From NCBI RefSeq assembly GCF_900890425.1, contig NZ_CAAHFG010000001.1, positions 3,162,001-3,226,000 on the forward strand: 64,000 bases of DNA, written 5' to 3'. The translations under genes and the position numbers were made by a program. This document shows, in pieces, positions 1-7,285 of this stretch (position 1 is its first letter; the number at the start of each line of letters is the position of its first letter). Below the pieces are notes generated by a model that had not been told where the DNA came from, did no database searches, and was given only the letters and a program-made list of their open reading frames with translations. Source of the DNA: Pontiella desulfatans (GTDB lineage Bacteria > Verrucomicrobiota > Kiritimatiellia > Kiritimatiellales > Pontiellaceae).

Positions 1-223
1 CTACGAACATTCCAAAATCCTGGAATATGGTTTTCACGTTGCCTTGCTGACGGAACTCCGTCAAAGCGTGCTTAATTATTCCTTTCCCCTGTGCTGCCAG
101 ACCCTCTATTGCTTCTAGTTCATCATCCTTTTCGTTGATACCGCTAGCGTCTACAAGATACGAACTAAGCAGAGAAGGAGTGAACGCATCCTTGCTACCT
201 GTTTTGTTCTCACCTGAATTCAT
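1..223 (-). CDS. Unknown protein, partial (N-terminal 74 residues)
   Basis: Reading leftward from an ATG at 223, an open frame begins MNSGENKTGSKDAFTP and stays open to the window edge. The start overlaps the last codons of the sigma-like gene by 14 bases, so the two are probably translationally coupled. The visible part is polar and acidic (for example NEKDDELEAIEG) with no recognisable motif or membrane segment. Its position directly behind a sigma-like gene would fit a regulator, anti-sigma factor or effector, but nothing in the sequence decides this. Confidence 0.6.
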   Translation of the reverse strand, partial: MNSGENKTGSKDAFTPSLLSSYLVDASGINEKDDELEAIEGLAAQGKGIIKHALTEFRQQGNVKTIFQDFGMFV

Positions 224-788
224 GGTTTTCTCCATTTTCGTTGTTGTCTAACTTTCTCCTAATTCGCTTCAAGATTCGGTTATAATTTCTATCATCCAAA
301 CTGAAGCTGTTCATTATGGCTTTTTTGCCTTTGCCACGAATCATTGATTCGAAGACATTCCAGGCGAGTTCATCGTCTGAAAAAAATAGTTTATGTGCAT
401 GATCAAAGGCGTCCTGCTCCCTAGCGCACTCGAATACTGGACTCGTATATGTTGCAATGCGTTCTTCACTAGCTTCTTTTTCTTCAAGTACCGTCGCTCC
501 TTGGGTCGATTTCAATCCTTTACCAGCCCACCTTCCGCCAATATTTCTGATTACCCACCAAAAATGCAACCTTAGTTCAATGCCCCGTTTCCATTTATGA
601 TCGCAATTTAAAGTCAACATAACGGCTTCATGCAAGATGTCATTTGCCGATCCATCTCGGGATTCTCGCAGATTAGCAACCTTCCACCTTCTTTTAGCCA
701 TTTTCATCAGATGCGCAGAATCTTCATCTGATATATTCTCTAAAAATCCGCTTATTTCTTCCTGAGTATAATATTCATTCGAGTCCAT
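210..788 (-). CDS. ECF-like sigma-70 family protein
   Basis: This 192-residue protein resembles small ECF sigma factors. A helical region around residues 48-85 (DILHEAVMLTL, then a WKRG/FWWVIRNI stretch) has the look of sigma region 2. The C-terminal 55 residues (AWNVFESMIRGKGKK through NRILKRIRRKLD) read like a region-4 helix-turn-helix with a basic end. It is transcribed away from the ubiquitin-like operon and shares the divergent control region 789-990. It may direct transcription of one or both flanking operons. The match is by pattern only; region 2 is weakly conserved. Confidence 0.6.
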   Translation of the reverse strand: MDSNEYYTQEEISGFLENISDEDSAHLMKMAKRRWKVANLRESRDGSANDILHEAVMLTLNCDHKWKRGIELRLHFWWVIRNIGGRWAGKGLKSTQGATVLEEKEASEERIATYTSPVFECAREQDAFDHAHKLFFSDDELAWNVFESMIRGKGKKAIMNSFSLDDRNYNRILKRIRRKLDNNENGENHEFR

Positions 789-990: not shown

Positions 991-1299
991 ATGACAGAAA
1001 AACATAATGAAGCAGAAGTTGTAGAACTCGAGGTGTATGCCAAAGCCCGCAAGCCTGTACCAAAGGATTGCAAACTATTCCGTATCAGAATTGACCGGGA
1101 AAAATATCTCGTTCAGCAAGCAGCGCTTACTGGTGCGGAGTTGCTAAAGCTCGCCGACAAGAAACCGGATCAATACCGGATACTGTTTAAAAAATGCAAC
1201 GGTAAGACAGTTGAAGTCCCATTGGATACGCACTTCAGCTTCCTCGACCCCGGAATCGAACGCTTTATGACCCAAAAACGTACCGCTCAGGAGGGTTGA
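991..1299 (+). CDS. Ubiquitin-like modifier (multiubiquitin-domain family)
   Basis: This 102-residue protein matches the prokaryotic multiubiquitin (PF14452-type) pattern: FRIRIDREKYLV, then LTGAELLKLA, then YRILFKK and a C-terminal FSFLDPGIERFMTQ. That order is a single beta-grasp domain. The tail ends in a single glycine (QKRTAQEG), ready for activation without processing. It is the first gene of an operon with an E2, a JAB-E1 fusion and a DUF6527 protein, so it is presumably the conjugated modifier. It is shorter than multi-domain relatives, which carry two or more beta-grasp units. Confidence 0.85.
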   Translation: MTEKHNEAEVVELEVYAKARKPVPKDCKLFRIRIDREKYLVQQAALTGAELLKLADKKPDQYRILFKKCNGKTVEVPLDTHFSFLDPGIERFMTQKRTAQEG

Positions 1300-1302
1300 T
1301 CA

Positions 1303-1701
1303 ATGCGTCGCGACTTCACCCCCTATGACGAGGATCTTGCGTACCTAGAGAGCCTTGGGACACCCTGGGAAGCTGTGCGCGAAGGAAGCCGCCTCTGGTA
1401 TATTCTTCATGAATACCAGCCTCCTACGGGGTATATACCTGAAGCAGTTTCGGCAGCATTCATGCTGCCCCCGGCCTATCCTTCCACACAAATCGACATG
1501 GTTTATTTCCACCCACCCTTAAAGCGGGGCGATGGAAAAAATCCTGCCGCCCTTGCCAACCACAATCTCGATGGAAAGCAATGGCAACGCTGGTCACGGC
1601 ATCGCCCTGCCCCGGTGGATTGGAAAGACGGTGTCGATTTTCTAGGAACCCATGTGGCCTATATTGAAGGCGTCATCTCAGCCGAAGTCGAAGGAGCATA
1701 A
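1303..1701 (+). CDS. E2-like conjugating protein (prokaryotic E2 family E)
   Basis: A 132-residue protein starting three bases after the Ubl stop. It fits the prokaryotic E2 family E pattern: a hydrophobic core with PPTGYIP and AFMLPPAYPSTQIDMVYF, then DGKQWQRWSRHR, where the family usually has its active-site neighbourhood. The protein contains no cysteine at all, so a classical thioester is impossible. The serine in QRWSRH is the natural candidate nucleophile. The partner E1 also has serines where cysteine is expected, which supports an oxyester route. The family assignment is firm; the mechanism is inferred. Confidence 0.85.
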   Translation: MRRDFTPYDEDLAYLESLGTPWEAVREGSRLWYILHEYQPPTGYIPEAVSAAFMLPPAYPSTQIDMVYFHPPLKRGDGKNPAALANHNLDGKQWQRWSRHRPAPVDWKDGVDFLGTHVAYIEGVISAEVEGA

Positions 1702-1702
1702 A

Positions 1703-3088
1703 ATGCAGTACAAATTAAGAATAGCAGGCATTCATTATGCTGAATTAAGAGATGCGCTATATCCCGGCGACTGGAAAGAAGCAGGGGCTATCGCAGTTTG
1801 TGGCCGGCGTGGTTCAGAAGGATGCACCACCTTGCTCGTGCAGAAAATCCATGCAGTTCCATTTGGTGCGTATCAGTCCCGTGAACCCGACTATCTTGAG
1901 TGGGATACACAATGGATGATCGACGTTCTCAACCACGCTGAATCAGAGGATCTTTCCTTGATTAAATTCCATAGCCATCCAGGTGGCGGGTCTTTCTTTT
2001 CAGAACGGGATGATCTGACAGATATCGGCATTTTGAACGAATGGTCTATTTTGTATGACCGCGCCACGCCACACGGAAGTGTCATAATGCTGCCAGATGG
2101 CGAACTTTTTGGGCGAATGGGATATGCCGGTCATCAGTTTATCCCGATAGAATCAATAGCTGTTGCCGGCAATCAATTACATTATTGGCAGCCAACGGAT
2201 CAGGAGTGCGTCTTTAGCGATGCTGAGTCCCGAAACCTCCAGACCTTCGGTGCAGGAACCACCGCAATTCTGAAGCGACTTAAGGTTGGCGTGATCGGAT
2301 GCTCCGGCACTGGCAGTATAGTTGTCGAACAATTGGCGCGCCTGGGAGTCGGACATTTGGTTCTTGTGGATCCCGACATTGTCGAGAAAAAGAACCTAAA
2401 CCGAGTCCTTAACACGACCGAAGAGGACGCTGTTAACGAACGATCAAAGGTGGATGTATTAAGCGATGCGATTCAGAAAATGGGATTTGAAACGCAGGTT
2501 ACTCGCATTGCGACCAACCTGGTCGCACCAAAACCCATCCAAGAAATTGCGTCATGCGACGTGGTTTTTGGATGCGTGGATGGCGCAGAGGGTCGCCATA
2601 TCCTTAATCGGATTTCTTCATACTATGTGATTCCGTATTTTGATGTAGGAATTGATCTCCAGGCTAGCGAGCATGGAGGCATCTCCCAGGTTACAGGAGC
2701 CGTGCACTACATTCAGCCGGGAGGCTCAAGCCTGTTGAGCAGAGGTATCTACTCCCAGGAAGAGGTCGAAGCCGAAGCATTAAGAAGATCAGATCCTGAG
2801 CTCTACGCTAATCATCTGAAGCAAAACTATATTGCTGGCGTTAAAGAAGACAGCCCAGCCGTTCTGCCAATCAACATGCACTATGCCAGCCTGCTGGTGC
2901 TGGAGTTCCTTGCTAGAATCCACAAATACCGAATTACAGACGATGCCGAATTGGCAATACAGCAGTACAACCTTGAAGACGTTGATAATGTTTATCGGGC
3001 AGAAGACGGCTTACCTTGCGCTGCCCTGGCGAAGCGAGTCGGCCGAGGGGACACCACCCCGCTACTGGACATCATCGGATTGGAATGA
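1703..3088 (+). CDS. JAB deubiquitinase-E1 (ThiF) fusion protein
   Basis: The start at 1703 lies one base after the E2 stop (461 residues). Residues 1-150 form a JAB/JAMM metalloprotease with an intact H90-x-H92-x7-S100-x2-D103 motif. Residues 180-461 are an E1/ThiF adenylating domain: GCSGTG at 199-204, VDPD with D223, NLNR with R234, and GCVDG at 290-294. The usual catalytic-cysteine loop is PGGSSLLSR (339-347), which has serines only. One protein would therefore both activate the Ubl and remove or process it. It works with the upstream Ubl and E2 and the downstream DUF6527 protein. Confidence 0.9.
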   Translation: MQYKLRIAGIHYAELRDALYPGDWKEAGAIAVCGRRGSEGCTTLLVQKIHAVPFGAYQSREPDYLEWDTQWMIDVLNHAESEDLSLIKFHSHPGGGSFFSERDDLTDIGILNEWSILYDRATPHGSVIMLPDGELFGRMGYAGHQFIPIESIAVAGNQLHYWQPTDQECVFSDAESRNLQTFGAGTTAILKRLKVGVIGCSGTGSIVVEQLARLGVGHLVLVDPDIVEKKNLNRVLNTTEEDAVNERSKVDVLSDAIQKMGFETQVTRIATNLVAPKPIQEIASCDVVFGCVDGAEGRHILNRISSYYVIPYFDVGIDLQASEHGGISQVTGAVHYIQPGGSSLLSRGIYSQEEVEAEALRRSDPELYANHLKQNYIAGVKEDSPAVLPINMHYASLLVLEFLARIHKYRITDDAELAIQQYNLEDVDNVYRAEDGLPCAALAKRVGRGDTTPLLDIIGLE

Positions 3089-3089
3089 C

Positions 3090-3464
3090 ATGCCCCGATT
3101 TATCAAAAAAGCGTTTCTGTTTATTCGAAGGCGACGAAGGTTTCATAGAATCGAGCATGTAGAAGATCAACCATTCTCCCTTTTGCTAGACACCATATAC
3201 GTTGTAGGAAAACCATATCCATGGTCTTTGATGTTCAAATGTCCCTGTGGGTGTGGCGACCGTGTGGAGCTGAATATTCTCCAGGATTGTTGGCCATGCT
3301 GGCGTTATTCCGAACAGGAAACTGGATTGATGTCGATATATCCATCAGTATGGTTAATCCATGATTGCGGAGCACACTTTTCTGTCCACGGCAGCAGCAT
3401 TAAATGGCATTGGGGTGTGAACAGACATAGTTCTGGCTTTCAGCACTGCCAAGAGTCGGACTGA
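3090..3464 (+). CDS. DUF6527 family protein, last gene of ubiquitin-like operon
   Basis: A 124-residue protein starting at 3090, one base after the JAB-E1 stop. It has the DUF6527 look: a basic N-terminus (FIRRRRRFHRIEHV), LMFKCPCGCGDRVEL around residues 46-60, LMSIYPSVW, and HDCGAHFSVHGSSIKW near the C-terminus. The CPCGC and CGAHF cysteines could bind one zinc ion. The family is regularly found beside prokaryotic Ubl/E2/E1-JAB genes. A role as ligase-like adaptor or sensor is plausible but unproven. Confidence 0.75.
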   Translation: MPRFIKKAFLFIRRRRRFHRIEHVEDQPFSLLLDTIYVVGKPYPWSLMFKCPCGCGDRVELNILQDCWPCWRYSEQETGLMSIYPSVWLIHDCGAHFSVHGSSIKWHWGVNRHSSGFQHCQESD

Positions 3465-4044: not shown

Positions 4045-6042
4045 CTAGAGGTTGTTGGGATCGGAAATGAACCGGAGGTTGTCGACGGATATATTCCGCG
4101 ACTTGAGATCGCGCAGGGTTTTGTGCTTTACGGATTCGGCGGTGCTGAAACTGATGATTTGATCAAAACCGAGTTCCAGCAGTTTCTGGATATTGTCGGC
4201 ACCCCGTGATCCGGTCTCGATTTCAACGGCCATGCGTTTCCCTTCCTTTTCGGCATGCAGGTCTATGCATTGGTTGTTGCCGATGGGCTTTTCCAGCTCA
4301 ACCGTCCAGCCCTCGCGGTCTAGCTTTCGGCGGATCTCGTTTTTCCAATAGTTATGGATGAGGCCGCCCTCTTTCCGCTTGGCCACCTCTACGTTGTTTC
4401 GTTTCATGGCGTCACGCATGTCCGGGGTAAAATCGAGCAGCACCACTTTTCCGGTTCGAGTTGGAATATCAACGGGATGGATAAGGCCCTTTAGAATAAG
4501 TCCCTGCTTGGCATGGTTGCCGCGTCTCCGGCTGATGGTCAACCGTGAATAGCGTTTTACGACTCCGTCAAACGGGTTTCGGTATATATCCTTCATGAGC
4601 TTTTTCTCCACTTCAGTAAGAGAGGTTCCAGGTTCGTTCTTTCCTATTCTATGAATATGGGGAACATCCTTGGTTGGGTTGGAATCCGCTTTATCCGGAG
4701 ATTCCCTTGAGGAATCCTTGGAATAGGTTCCGTATCGCTGAATGAGATGCGCGTCGGTGACGGAGCCCTTTTCGAGATCGACCTTGGGGATCTGAATCTC
4801 GAACGGGAAGATGAAGCGCGACTGGAGTTTTACGACGGCGTGGCCGATGGGCAGGAGTCCGAGCACCTCGCGGTGCTCCCGCGGGATACGCATCATTTCG
4901 GCAAGGGAATTGATGTCCTTGCTGTGCTTCATGTTGAGCGCGATGGTGCAGTAGGTATTACCGAGCGCCGGGACGGAAATCTGGCTGGGATGCTGGTCGA
5001 CCAGCACGATGGATTCGCCCATCTCCCTGATTTCACGCAGGAGGAGATCGATGACGGTTTCCTTGCCGGTGTTGGTGAGGATGTTGTGCGCCTCCTCAAC
5101 AATGACGCAGTGCTTGAAGGTTTCCCGGTCGGGTTCAAGCATCCGGCAGTGGTGGATCCAGACCATCAGCGTTTCTATAAGGAAGATCTTTTCGTTGTGC
5201 GCCAGTGAATTGAGTTCGAGGCAGACGTTTTTATCGAGCAGTTCCTGTATGCCGGATTGGGACTCGGTGTTGATGACGTCGGACACCTGTCCAAAGCAGA
5301 GGCTCTGAACGGCACGCATGGTGGAATCGAGCCACATGGCCTTCCGGCCTTTAACAGGCATCTTTTCGAGAAACTCCAGAACATCCTTCAAGGTCGGGAA
5401 CCGTTCAGGGTCGGCGGTGTAGCATCCGTATTTTGTGTAGACGGCATCGATGGCCTCCAGAAGAATGAACATGACCCCCTCCCCCAGAAAATACGCATGA
5501 CTGATAATCTCGATCAGTTTCTTGAGCCAGACCTTCAAGTCGGTGCCCGGCGGCGGGATCAGCGGATTGAAATGCAGCGGATGAACGGGTCGGCCAACGG
5601 TGTAGATTTCCAGTGGAACATCGTGCGCCAGCAGATCGCGGTAGTTCCGTTTCCAGTCGAAAATCAGGAAAGGCTTTTTGTGCCGTACCAGCTCTTTTAT
5701 GAGCAGGGCTACGGTGTTGGTTTTCCCCGCGCCGCTCCGGCCAAAAATCGCCATGTGCTGGATGAACTCGTCTTCGCAGATTCCAAAGGGATACAAGACC
5801 TGGTCGTGCGCCAGAACCTTTCCCAGCTCATACTGCCCGGCGGCATTCCCTTCCGGCGGAATATGGAGTCCGTTTTCAACGAGCGGGTTGACGCCGAATT
5901 TTCGTTCGAGCTGAAGCTCCACCAAGGCTTCGATATCGCGCTTGCCGGCGCTGTCGCTCAACTGGTGCTGGCGCCAGATTTTAAGCGCCTTGGATTTGCC
6001 GATATAGTCGGCCAGTTTCTTGAGCGATTCCTCAAAGATCAT
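4045..6042 (-). CDS. HerA/FtsK-type ATPase with winged-helix and nuclease-like tail
   Basis: A 665-residue ATPase. Walker A is GRSGAGKTN (101-109), Walker B is CVIVEEAH (312-319), and LVDQHPSQI (347-355) is a typical HerA-like sensor. After a low-complexity linker (440-470), residues 475-545 look like a winged helix (YRNPFDGVVKRYSRL, SRRRGNHAKQGLI). Residues 560-630 (IDLHAEKE, MAVEIETG) resemble PD-(D/E)xK-like modules. This layout is familiar to me from archaeal mobile-element and chromosomal HerA relatives. It probably pumps or processes element DNA. Its start overlaps the end of the upstream 185-residue gene by 11 bases, so they form one unit. Confidence 0.85.
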   Translation of the reverse strand: MIFEESLKKLADYIGKSKALKIWRQHQLSDSAGKRDIEALVELQLERKFGVNPLVENGLHIPPEGNAAGQYELGKVLAHDQVLYPFGICEDEFIQHMAIFGRSGAGKTNTVALLIKELVRHKKPFLIFDWKRNYRDLLAHDVPLEIYTVGRPVHPLHFNPLIPPPGTDLKVWLKKLIEIISHAYFLGEGVMFILLEAIDAVYTKYGCYTADPERFPTLKDVLEFLEKMPVKGRKAMWLDSTMRAVQSLCFGQVSDVINTESQSGIQELLDKNVCLELNSLAHNEKIFLIETLMVWIHHCRMLEPDRETFKHCVIVEEAHNILTNTGKETVIDLLLREIREMGESIVLVDQHPSQISVPALGNTYCTIALNMKHSKDINSLAEMMRIPREHREVLGLLPIGHAVVKLQSRFIFPFEIQIPKVDLEKGSVTDAHLIQRYGTYSKDSSRESPDKADSNPTKDVPHIHRIGKNEPGTSLTEVEKKLMKDIYRNPFDGVVKRYSRLTISRRRGNHAKQGLILKGLIHPVDIPTRTGKVVLLDFTPDMRDAMKRNNVEVAKRKEGGLIHNYWKNEIRRKLDREGWTVELEKPIGNNQCIDLHAEKEGKRMAVEIETGSRGADNIQKLLELGFDQIISFSTAESVKHKTLRDLKSRNISVDNLRFISDPNNL

Positions 6043-6589
6043 CGTTCAGCACCCTCTTAATCCTCCGCTCACCGGCATAGTCTGACCATGATTCGAATAT
6101 GTCGCCCAGCAACCGGTTGGTATCTCGCCAGCAGGCCACCTCTTCGGCATGCCTTTCCTTGGCCAGGGAATGAATCTGCTTTTCAAGCTCTGACTCGAAC
6201 CGGCTGTGAATGCCGTTATAGTTTGGCCAGTTCCGCAGCTCGGACAGGATGCCGTGAACCCGCAGCTGTTCGTATTCGGTGCTCTTTACAATGCCGTATG
6301 AAATCGCATGCCGTGCTTTGAGCTGCTTGACCAGTATATCGATGTGATCGCCATGCAGGTGCAGCCGGTCGGTCGCAAAATCCAGCGGCTCGACCTCGTA
6401 GGCGTTCCTGCTGTTGAAAATCTTCTCGGTCAGCTCGTCGGGATTCTTGAAGGGACTTTTGTCCGGCTTGATCTCCCGGATGATCTCGAAGGCGGGCTGC
6501 CCGGTTTCAACATGATAGTTGTATGCGTCCTGTTGGCGCTCCGCCTCGGCGTCATACAACGGTATTCCGTATTTGTCTTCAAATGCCAT
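6032..6589 (-). CDS. Unknown partner protein of HerA-type ATPase
   Basis: A 185-residue protein. The start at 6589 (MAFEDKYGIPLYDAE) is chosen because GGAG lies nine bases upstream; an upstream start at 6625 would fall inside the TATA-like box. The C-terminal half is rich in charged helices (RFESELEKQIHSLAKERHAEEV), suggesting coiled coil. No enzymatic motif is visible and it is not an obvious NurA nuclease. Its 3' end overlaps the ATPase start, so a complex with the ATPase is likely. An archaeal-like promoter box (6621-6639) precedes it. Confidence 0.65.
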   Translation of the reverse strand: MAFEDKYGIPLYDAEAERQQDAYNYHVETGQPAFEIIREIKPDKSPFKNPDELTEKIFNSRNAYEVEPLDFATDRLHLHGDHIDILVKQLKARHAISYGIVKSTEYEQLRVHGILSELRNWPNYNGIHSRFESELEKQIHSLAKERHAEEVACWRDTNRLLGDIFESWSDYAGERRIKRVLNDDL

Positions 6590-6620
6590 ATTACCACTCT
6601 CCGGTAGGAATAAATGGGTT

Positions 6621-6639
6621 GGCATTTATAAAGGTTTCG
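6621..6639 (-). promoter_or_regulatory. Archaeal-like BRE/TATA box before the HerA operon
   Basis: On the minus strand this reads CGAAACC-TTTATAAA-TGCC. A CGAAA stretch directly before TTTATAAA matches the archaeal BRE plus TATA pattern. There are 35 bases between the TATA box (6625-6632) and the ATG at 6589. The same CGAAACCTTTATA core with the same 35-base spacing precedes the gene at 13847-14074. Confidence 0.5.
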
Positions 6640-6743
6640 GTTCCGACGCAGATGTAGGCAAAAAAGACGCCCGGACAGCCGGGTTCGAGGTGACCATTCA
6701 CGTCGATAACCAGCTGGCCGGGCTTTGTCTGCTTGCCTGCCCC

Positions 6744-7028
6744 CTATCCGAAGCGATGACCGCCACCCAAGGAACCGCGCAGGGTTTGAAGCGCCTCGAT
6801 CGCATCATCCCACAGTCGAGTGCCATGCGTTCCCAGCACATGGGTCCGCGCCACAGCCTCGGCCACACGCCGGTCTCCGGATGAAAACAGAATGGAGTGG
6901 TTGCACCAGGGGCACTCCCATTCCCATTGATCCCCATAGGGGCTGGCCAGGCCTCCCTGCAAAACCATGCCGGAATCGGGATTCCGGCCGGCAATCGATG
7001 CAAAGAGGCGCTGTGACTCCATCCTCAT
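6744..7028 (-). CDS. Small zinc-knuckle protein (paralogue of 7995-8213)
   Basis: A 94-residue protein whose ATG overlaps the stop of the upstream gene in an ATGA arrangement, implying translational coupling. The core WECPWCNHSILFSS followed by HVLGTHG offers two cysteines and two histidines for one zinc. The same spacing occurs in the protein encoded at 7995-8213 (WHCPFCDHSLIYSE, then HVGRRHSG), so the two are paralogues within one cluster. A DNA- or RNA-binding role is a guess from the C2H2-like pattern. Confidence 0.65.
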   Translation of the reverse strand: MRMESQRLFASIAGRNPDSGMVLQGGLASPYGDQWEWECPWCNHSILFSSGDRRVAEAVARTHVLGTHGTRLWDDAIEALQTLRGSLGGGHRFG

Positions 7029-7285
7029 AAAGCATCACCTTCGTCCACCACTTCAAGGGACATGGTCTCGTACGCCTTGTTCAGCGCAAGAACCGCCTTC
7101 GGAACGTCCGCCATCCTGAGGGACGACGTACCCTTCCAGTCGCCACGCTTGTCCTTGTATCGCCGCTCAACCGTCACGTTGTGCAGCGTCTCTTCATTGC
7201 CGTCCCGACCGACGACCCGGTTCTCCCAGACAGCAACCTGGATACCGCCTGCCTTGAACTTTTTGATTGGTCTTTCGTTTGCCAT
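7025..7285 (-). CDS. Small conserved protein of archaeal-type mobile elements
   Basis: An 86-residue protein with the start at 7285, where GGAGG sits eight bases upstream. The pattern PIKKFKAGGIQVAVWEN, then VTVERRYKDKRGDWKGTSS and DVPKAVLALNKAYE, recalls small orphan proteins I associate with archaeal plasmids and integrated elements (from memory, unverified). A beta-rich first half and a helical end would suit a small nucleic-acid-binding fold. It is preceded by a 13-bp stem-loop leader (7315-7350) and followed by the coupled zinc-knuckle gene. Confidence 0.65.
   Translation of the reverse strand: MANERPIKKFKAGGIQVAVWENRVVGRDGNEETLHNVTVERRYKDKRGDWKGTSSLRMADVPKAVLALNKAYETMSLEVVDEGDAL

Follow-up and report, generated by a model that had tools for sequence, protein, structure and literature searches.

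This locus raises the question of how a ubiquitin-like protein (Ubl) could be conjugated by an operon whose E2 has no cysteine at all and whose E1 has none where the catalytic one would be expected. The operon lies within a 64,000-nt stretch of Pontiella desulfatans DNA (NZ_CAAHFG010000001.1), here denoted the window, and coordinates are window positions unless given otherwise. The initial annotation had proposed a four-gene Ubl operon at 991-3464 with serine-based oxyester transfer, completed by a DUF6527 protein and a divergent sigma-like gene. All four genes were found at these places as open frames, closely packed in the order Ubl, E2, JAMM-E1 and DUF6527, so that the operon is complete. 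The sigma-like gene is also present, and heads a larger cassette. The features of the locus are the following.

1-235, minus strand: XRE-type protein of 183 aa, 3' neighbour of the sigma gene, extending beyond the window
G000:C1:3160758-3161678, outside the window: ImmA/IrrE (CapP-like) peptidase, next after the XRE-type gene
210-788, minus strand: ECF-like sigma factor gene, divergent from the operon (remote sigma-70 profile signal, structure-model matches)
789-990, no strand assigned: predicted divergent promoter region, containing an imperfect inverted repeat
991-1299, plus strand: Ubl (BubA-like), single beta-grasp domain, 102 aa (PF14452, Multi_ubiq, 1.5e-08)
1303-1701, plus strand: E2 (BubB-like), 132 aa (PF14462, Prok-E2_E, 3.5e-32)
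1591-1593 and 1597-1599, plus strand: codons of E2 S97 and H99
1703-3088, plus strand: JAMM protease-E1 adenylation fusion (BubCD-like), 461 aa, ATG at 1703 (PF14464 and PF00899)
1970-2011, plus strand: JAMM motif H90-x-H92-P...S100-x-x-D103, with the E26 codon at 1778-1780
2717-2743, plus strand: PGGSSLLSR loop, E1 residues 339-347
2828-2830, plus strand: E1 Y376
3090-3464, plus strand: DUF6527 protein, 124 aa, ATG at 3090 (PF20137, 4.2e-13)

By homology and gene content, the operon is a fresh copy of an already described system, Bub ('bacterial ubiquitination-like'), of which 544 operons have been counted (EMBO J 2026, PMC13373217). It encodes a JAMM-E1 of BubCD length, a Prok-E2_E protein with a WSRH motif and without cysteine, a Multi_ubiq Ubl with its Gly, and DUF6527. 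The JAMM-E1 matches Citrobacter BubCD from the PDB end to end (residues 14-457, E=7.4e-80) and the E2 matches Citrobacter BubB (E=3e-22). All four Bub proteins co-occur in 40 loci, and DUF6527 was present in 40 of the 40 Bub loci whose sequence extends far enough to reveal it. The mechanism of Bub is credited to Ye et al. 2026 (NSMB 33:71) in the publication that made the count, according to which phage protection by Bub as a class is still unproven (PMC13373217).

The window Ubl ends in ...QKRTAQEG, exactly at the conserved C-terminal Gly, and would thus need no maturation. Most standalone Ubls of the family likewise end exactly in ...TEG or ...QEG, and the BubA fragment 155-229 of PDB 9ea8 ends in ...VNNG, at its Gly; Ubl-E2 fusions run on past the Gly. 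The JAMM site had been described as intact, and E26, H90, H92, S100 and D103 are indeed present and kept in 35-36 of 36 sequences; one PDB chain bears the name BubCD D104A, and the altered residue aligns to window D103. Since the Ubl is already mature and the JAMM is fully conserved, deconjugation is the likelier task of the protease, which is probably a deconjugase here. A Ubl born mature would mean that the operon separates JAMM deconjugation from maturation. Two standalone Ubls from other loci (L028:5661-5996 and L034:5477-5989) carry a short tail after EG (SCG and CGLGQELC), so that cutting would be needed there even without fusion to an E2.

The E2 contains no cysteine in its 132 residues, as had been noted. 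Absence of cysteine says little by itself, because among 35 distinct E2 domains, drawn from several phyla, 13 have none and 17 have one; no alignment column holds Cys in more than 5 of the 35 rows. More telling is the WSRH motif, whose serine had been put forward as the acceptor site: S97 and H99 are invariant (35/35) and W96 is kept in 34 of 35, although these E2s otherwise have few residues in common, and relatives have solved Bub structures. By conservation a serine E2 is well supported, the chemistry itself being a proposal built on sequence; a structural role of S97 and H99 would also fit their conservation. A very divergent E2/E1 pair (L060, G167, 4507-7196) has ISYH for WSRH and so keeps S-x-H; its E1 reads PELPCACCC in the loop, has no equivalent of Tyr376 and possibly belongs to a separate family.

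Iyer, Burroughs and Aravind predicted this kind of operon in 2006, under the name type 6e, and considered its E2-like domain inactive for want of Cys (PMC1779556). Following that reading, the E2-like protein would be a dead, RWD-like domain that binds the Ubl, and Ubl-AMP on the E1 would go directly to targets or be handed to another E2. Such invariance of two residues amid otherwise divergent sequences is, however, unusual for a dead domain, and the operon's E2 is the sole Prok-E2_E in the genome, with no Prok-E2_B match found by a search whose control was silent. We regard this reading as unlikely. A separate cysteine E2 acting with this Ubl, which the initial annotation had named as evidence against its proposal, appeared in neither search; the result holds for Prok-E2_E, and for Prok-E2_B it is to be read with the silent control.

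The E1 half retains the adenylation residues N231, R234, K249 and D293, each found in 36 of the 36 E1s compared. It contains seven cysteines, none of them in the catalytic-Cys segment; the sole one that is nearly invariant, C291, belongs to a 'CxD' motif also present in MoeB and ThiF. That the E1 is without a catalytic cysteine stands, and residues 339-347 read PGGSSLLSR as had been reported, but this loop is not the site from which the catalytic cysteine was lost. Alignment with MoeB and ThiF places it opposite the zinc-knuckle CxxC (GEPCYRCL in E. coli MoeB, GCYRCL in ThiF), and three relatives (L032, L033 and L035), which resemble ThiF in this, have CLLC or CLMC in the loop together with a C-terminal CPVC or CPCC. 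In the window E1 both pairs are degenerate.

The three loop serines had been suggested as nucleophiles, and one can imagine a double relay in which the Ubl is bound as an oxyester first by a serine of PGGSSLLSR and then by the E2 serine. The sequence does contain these residues, and one or two of the loop serines recur in many relatives. Yet S342, S343 and S346 are serine in only 26, 23 and 17 of the 36 E1s, the columns varying as S/A/P/E/T/N, S/T/C/G/N and S/D/C/G/Q, respectively, and two loci that lack all three (L028, PDGAGLVQR; L054, PDGPNLSDR) are otherwise intact, complete operons. Variable conservation and equivalence to a former zinc knuckle led us to discard the loop serines as nucleophile, and a double serine relay appears very improbable. 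Serine-based oxyester transfer is thus backed by conservation for the E2 and not for the E1 loop.

The E1 segment in which ThiF and MoeB have their catalytic Cys contains Y376, a tyrosine in 35 of the 36 E1s, those of the zinc-knuckle type included. It lies 9 residues ahead of a conserved Pro, whereas the MoeB/ThiF Cys lies 8 residues ahead of the matching Pro, so that the pairing of Tyr with Cys, anchored on this Pro, is approximate. Profile-profile alignment to MoeB/ThiF was dropped as a means of exact pairing, being unreliable past residue 307. In the aligned region the BubCD chains of PDB 9ea4, 9ea5 and 9eav differ only by the JAMM D-to-A change and, in 9eav, by Y-to-F, which puts Phe at the position of Y376; the depositors therefore appear to have targeted the tyrosine. 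Tyr376 is, on conservation, a better E1 candidate than the loop serines.

The same genome carries a second JAB-E1 fusion (L062:4227-5732, minus strand; G000:C1 around 1567000) that shares the GYxSG tyrosine motif and carries CxxC pairs. It adjoins a 154-aa protein without Pfam match and has a HerA-like ATPase nearby; HerA/DUF87-type ATPases are close to both Ubl operons of the genome (window 4045-6042 and L062:1043-3139, both on the minus strand).

From gene content, homology, residue conservation and linkage we infer the following chemistry, targets and regulation. The E1 half of JAMM-E1, by homology, would adenylate the C-terminal Gly of the already mature Ubl, which would then form an oxyester with Ser97 of the cysteine-free E2, the neighbouring His99 being a likely general base or stabiliser, and move on from there to a target amine. 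As the catalytic segment of the E1 has neither a Cys nor a conserved Ser nucleophile and carries the near-invariant Tyr376 instead, Ubl-AMP may be transferred to Ser97 directly, or via or assisted by Tyr376. The intact JAMM would remove the tag. Oxyester intermediates for Bub are reportedly what Ye et al. proposed in 2026, a point that was given no weight here. We consider it likely that this is a Bub protein-tagging operon working in the proposed way as a whole, which would strengthen the case for ubiquitin-like conjugation that does not need cysteine.

The DUF6527 protein, which had been counted as part of the system on the initial reading, has four invariant columns, C51, C55, C93 and H96, which suggest one zinc site, predicted to have the form C51-x3-C55...C93-x2-H96. 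The metal-binding signature published in 2006 matches these ligands except for the order of the last two (PMC1779556). A comparison of an AlphaFold model (pLDDT 73) with the PDB returned nothing significant. A serine in an 'SHF' motif was considered as a protease serine and ruled out, the window protein reading CGAHF and others CxCHF. Our guess is that DUF6527 is a zinc-binding accessory, probably handling targets or products. In Argonema antarcticum (L015:4799-5590) a single frame runs from the JAMM straight into DUF6527 and the E1 domain is missing entirely, whether by in-frame deletion, through an assembly error or as a natural variant.

The distribution of the operon is sporadic. In the phylum sample a Prok-E2_E match over the cut-off was found in 5 of 388 genomes, and among same-genus genomes 1 of 11 carries the operon, the window's own genome being counted. 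Its nearest E1 lies outside the phylum and is encoded by a plasmid of Abditibacteriota, at 49% identity and with 87/92 support, and 98 plasmid records hold relatives; together with the sporadic distribution these findings fit horizontal gain. Of the phage and viral collections, one gave only generic ThiF matches and the other none. The single occurrence in the genus, and the existence of the Argonema frame without E1, could also be taken as signs of a degenerate operon that is decaying and inactive. Against this, all frames are open, the genes are closely packed, the JAMM, adenylation and E2 residues and the C-terminal Gly are kept, and the E1 still shares 49% identity with its plasmid relative. 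Open frames, kept residues and this identity indicate selection, and decay seems highly improbable.

The divergent cassette consists of the sigma gene, the XRE-type gene and the peptidase gene. The model of the sigma gene product (pLDDT 64) shows two sets of four helices joined by a linker. Its matches are for the most part sigma factors, led by ECF types, and the best Z, 7.6, falls short of the 8 needed to convince by itself; among relatives of the protein Sigma70_r2 rises above the Pfam cut-off (L034). The XRE-type middle protein gave HTH_3 at 0.022, below the cut-off, and in PADLOC only an HTH match at 0.0034. The ImmA/IrrE peptidase matched PADLOC capP at 1.4e-9 and Peptidase_M78 at 3.6e-4, just under the cut-off, and its gene is adjacent and divergent to the operon, as expected of CapP. 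The region between operon and sigma gene includes an inverted repeat at 891-952, with 13-nt arms (891-903 and 940-952) 36 nt apart, a possible operator.

Of the 40 Bub loci, 19 have an ImmA/IrrE gene alongside, the window's own counted, in agreement with the reported association of Bub with CapH+CapP: 219 of 544 Bub operons are linked to CapW or CapH+CapP, and the CapH+CapP controller is activated by ssDNA or DNA damage (PMC13373217). Sigma relatives were found beside nine other Bub loci, L068 counted and L030 weak. In L066 the same three-gene cassette is divergent to a CBASS operon, with a cyclase and a SAVED effector as neighbours, a peptidase that is a clear CapP (3e-67) and a middle protein that matches capH (4.9e-5); in L065 and L067 the cassette adjoins other genes. 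A Bub-specific sigma gene is ruled out by these relatives beside CBASS and unrelated genes. The cassettes lie at L066:3971-5756, L065:3995-5780, L067:3965-5786, L068:3980-5717 and L028:3546-5546, and the middle protein of those in L065-L068 has no recognised HTH.

Expression of the window operon would probably be under this sigma, XRE and CapP-like cassette, most likely on DNA damage. Tentatively, a modular controller of sigma, CapH-like and CapP-like proteins might switch on Bub, CBASS and other defence operons, and in L065-L068 the middle protein could act as an anti-sigma factor that the peptidase, once activated by DNA damage, destroys. This would be a possible further mode of defence-gene control common to Bub and CBASS. 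No mention of a sigma-bearing version was found in PMC13373217, and of the whole finding the sigma cassette has the best chance of being new.

Compared with known systems, the operon has a cassette of Ubl, E2, E1 and JAMM in common with Bil (BilABCD), in which the catalytic Cys of BilB sits in a CEHH motif (PMC11354881); the cysteine-free E2 sets the window operon apart. Type II CBASS (Cap2/Cap3) has an E1-E2 fusion beside a cyclase, whereas the E2 here is a separate gene, and no PADLOC match to a cyclase was found among the eight proteins tested. With type 6e the operon has in common the Ubl, the E2-like domain without Cys, the JAB-E1 fusion and the zinc-finger protein, and the invariance of S97 and H99 speaks against inactivity of that domain. 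Closest is Citrobacter Bub (PDB 9ea4, 9ea5, 9ea8, 9eae and 9eav), with a Ubl, a Cys-free WSRH E2 and a JAMM-E1 fusion that has both the conserved Tyr and a PGGS loop. A relative on a Citrobacter freundii plasmid (L026) shows the same gene order with DUF6527 adjoining, but its Ubl is multi-domain and fused to the E2, whereas the window Ubl is a single domain with its own gene ending at Gly. The controller also differs from that of Citrobacter Bub. The window cassette resembles the CapH+CapP controller known from CBASS and other immune operons in having genes for an XRE-type protein and an ImmA/IrrE peptidase adjacent to the operon, and departs from it in the extra ECF-like sigma gene at its head.
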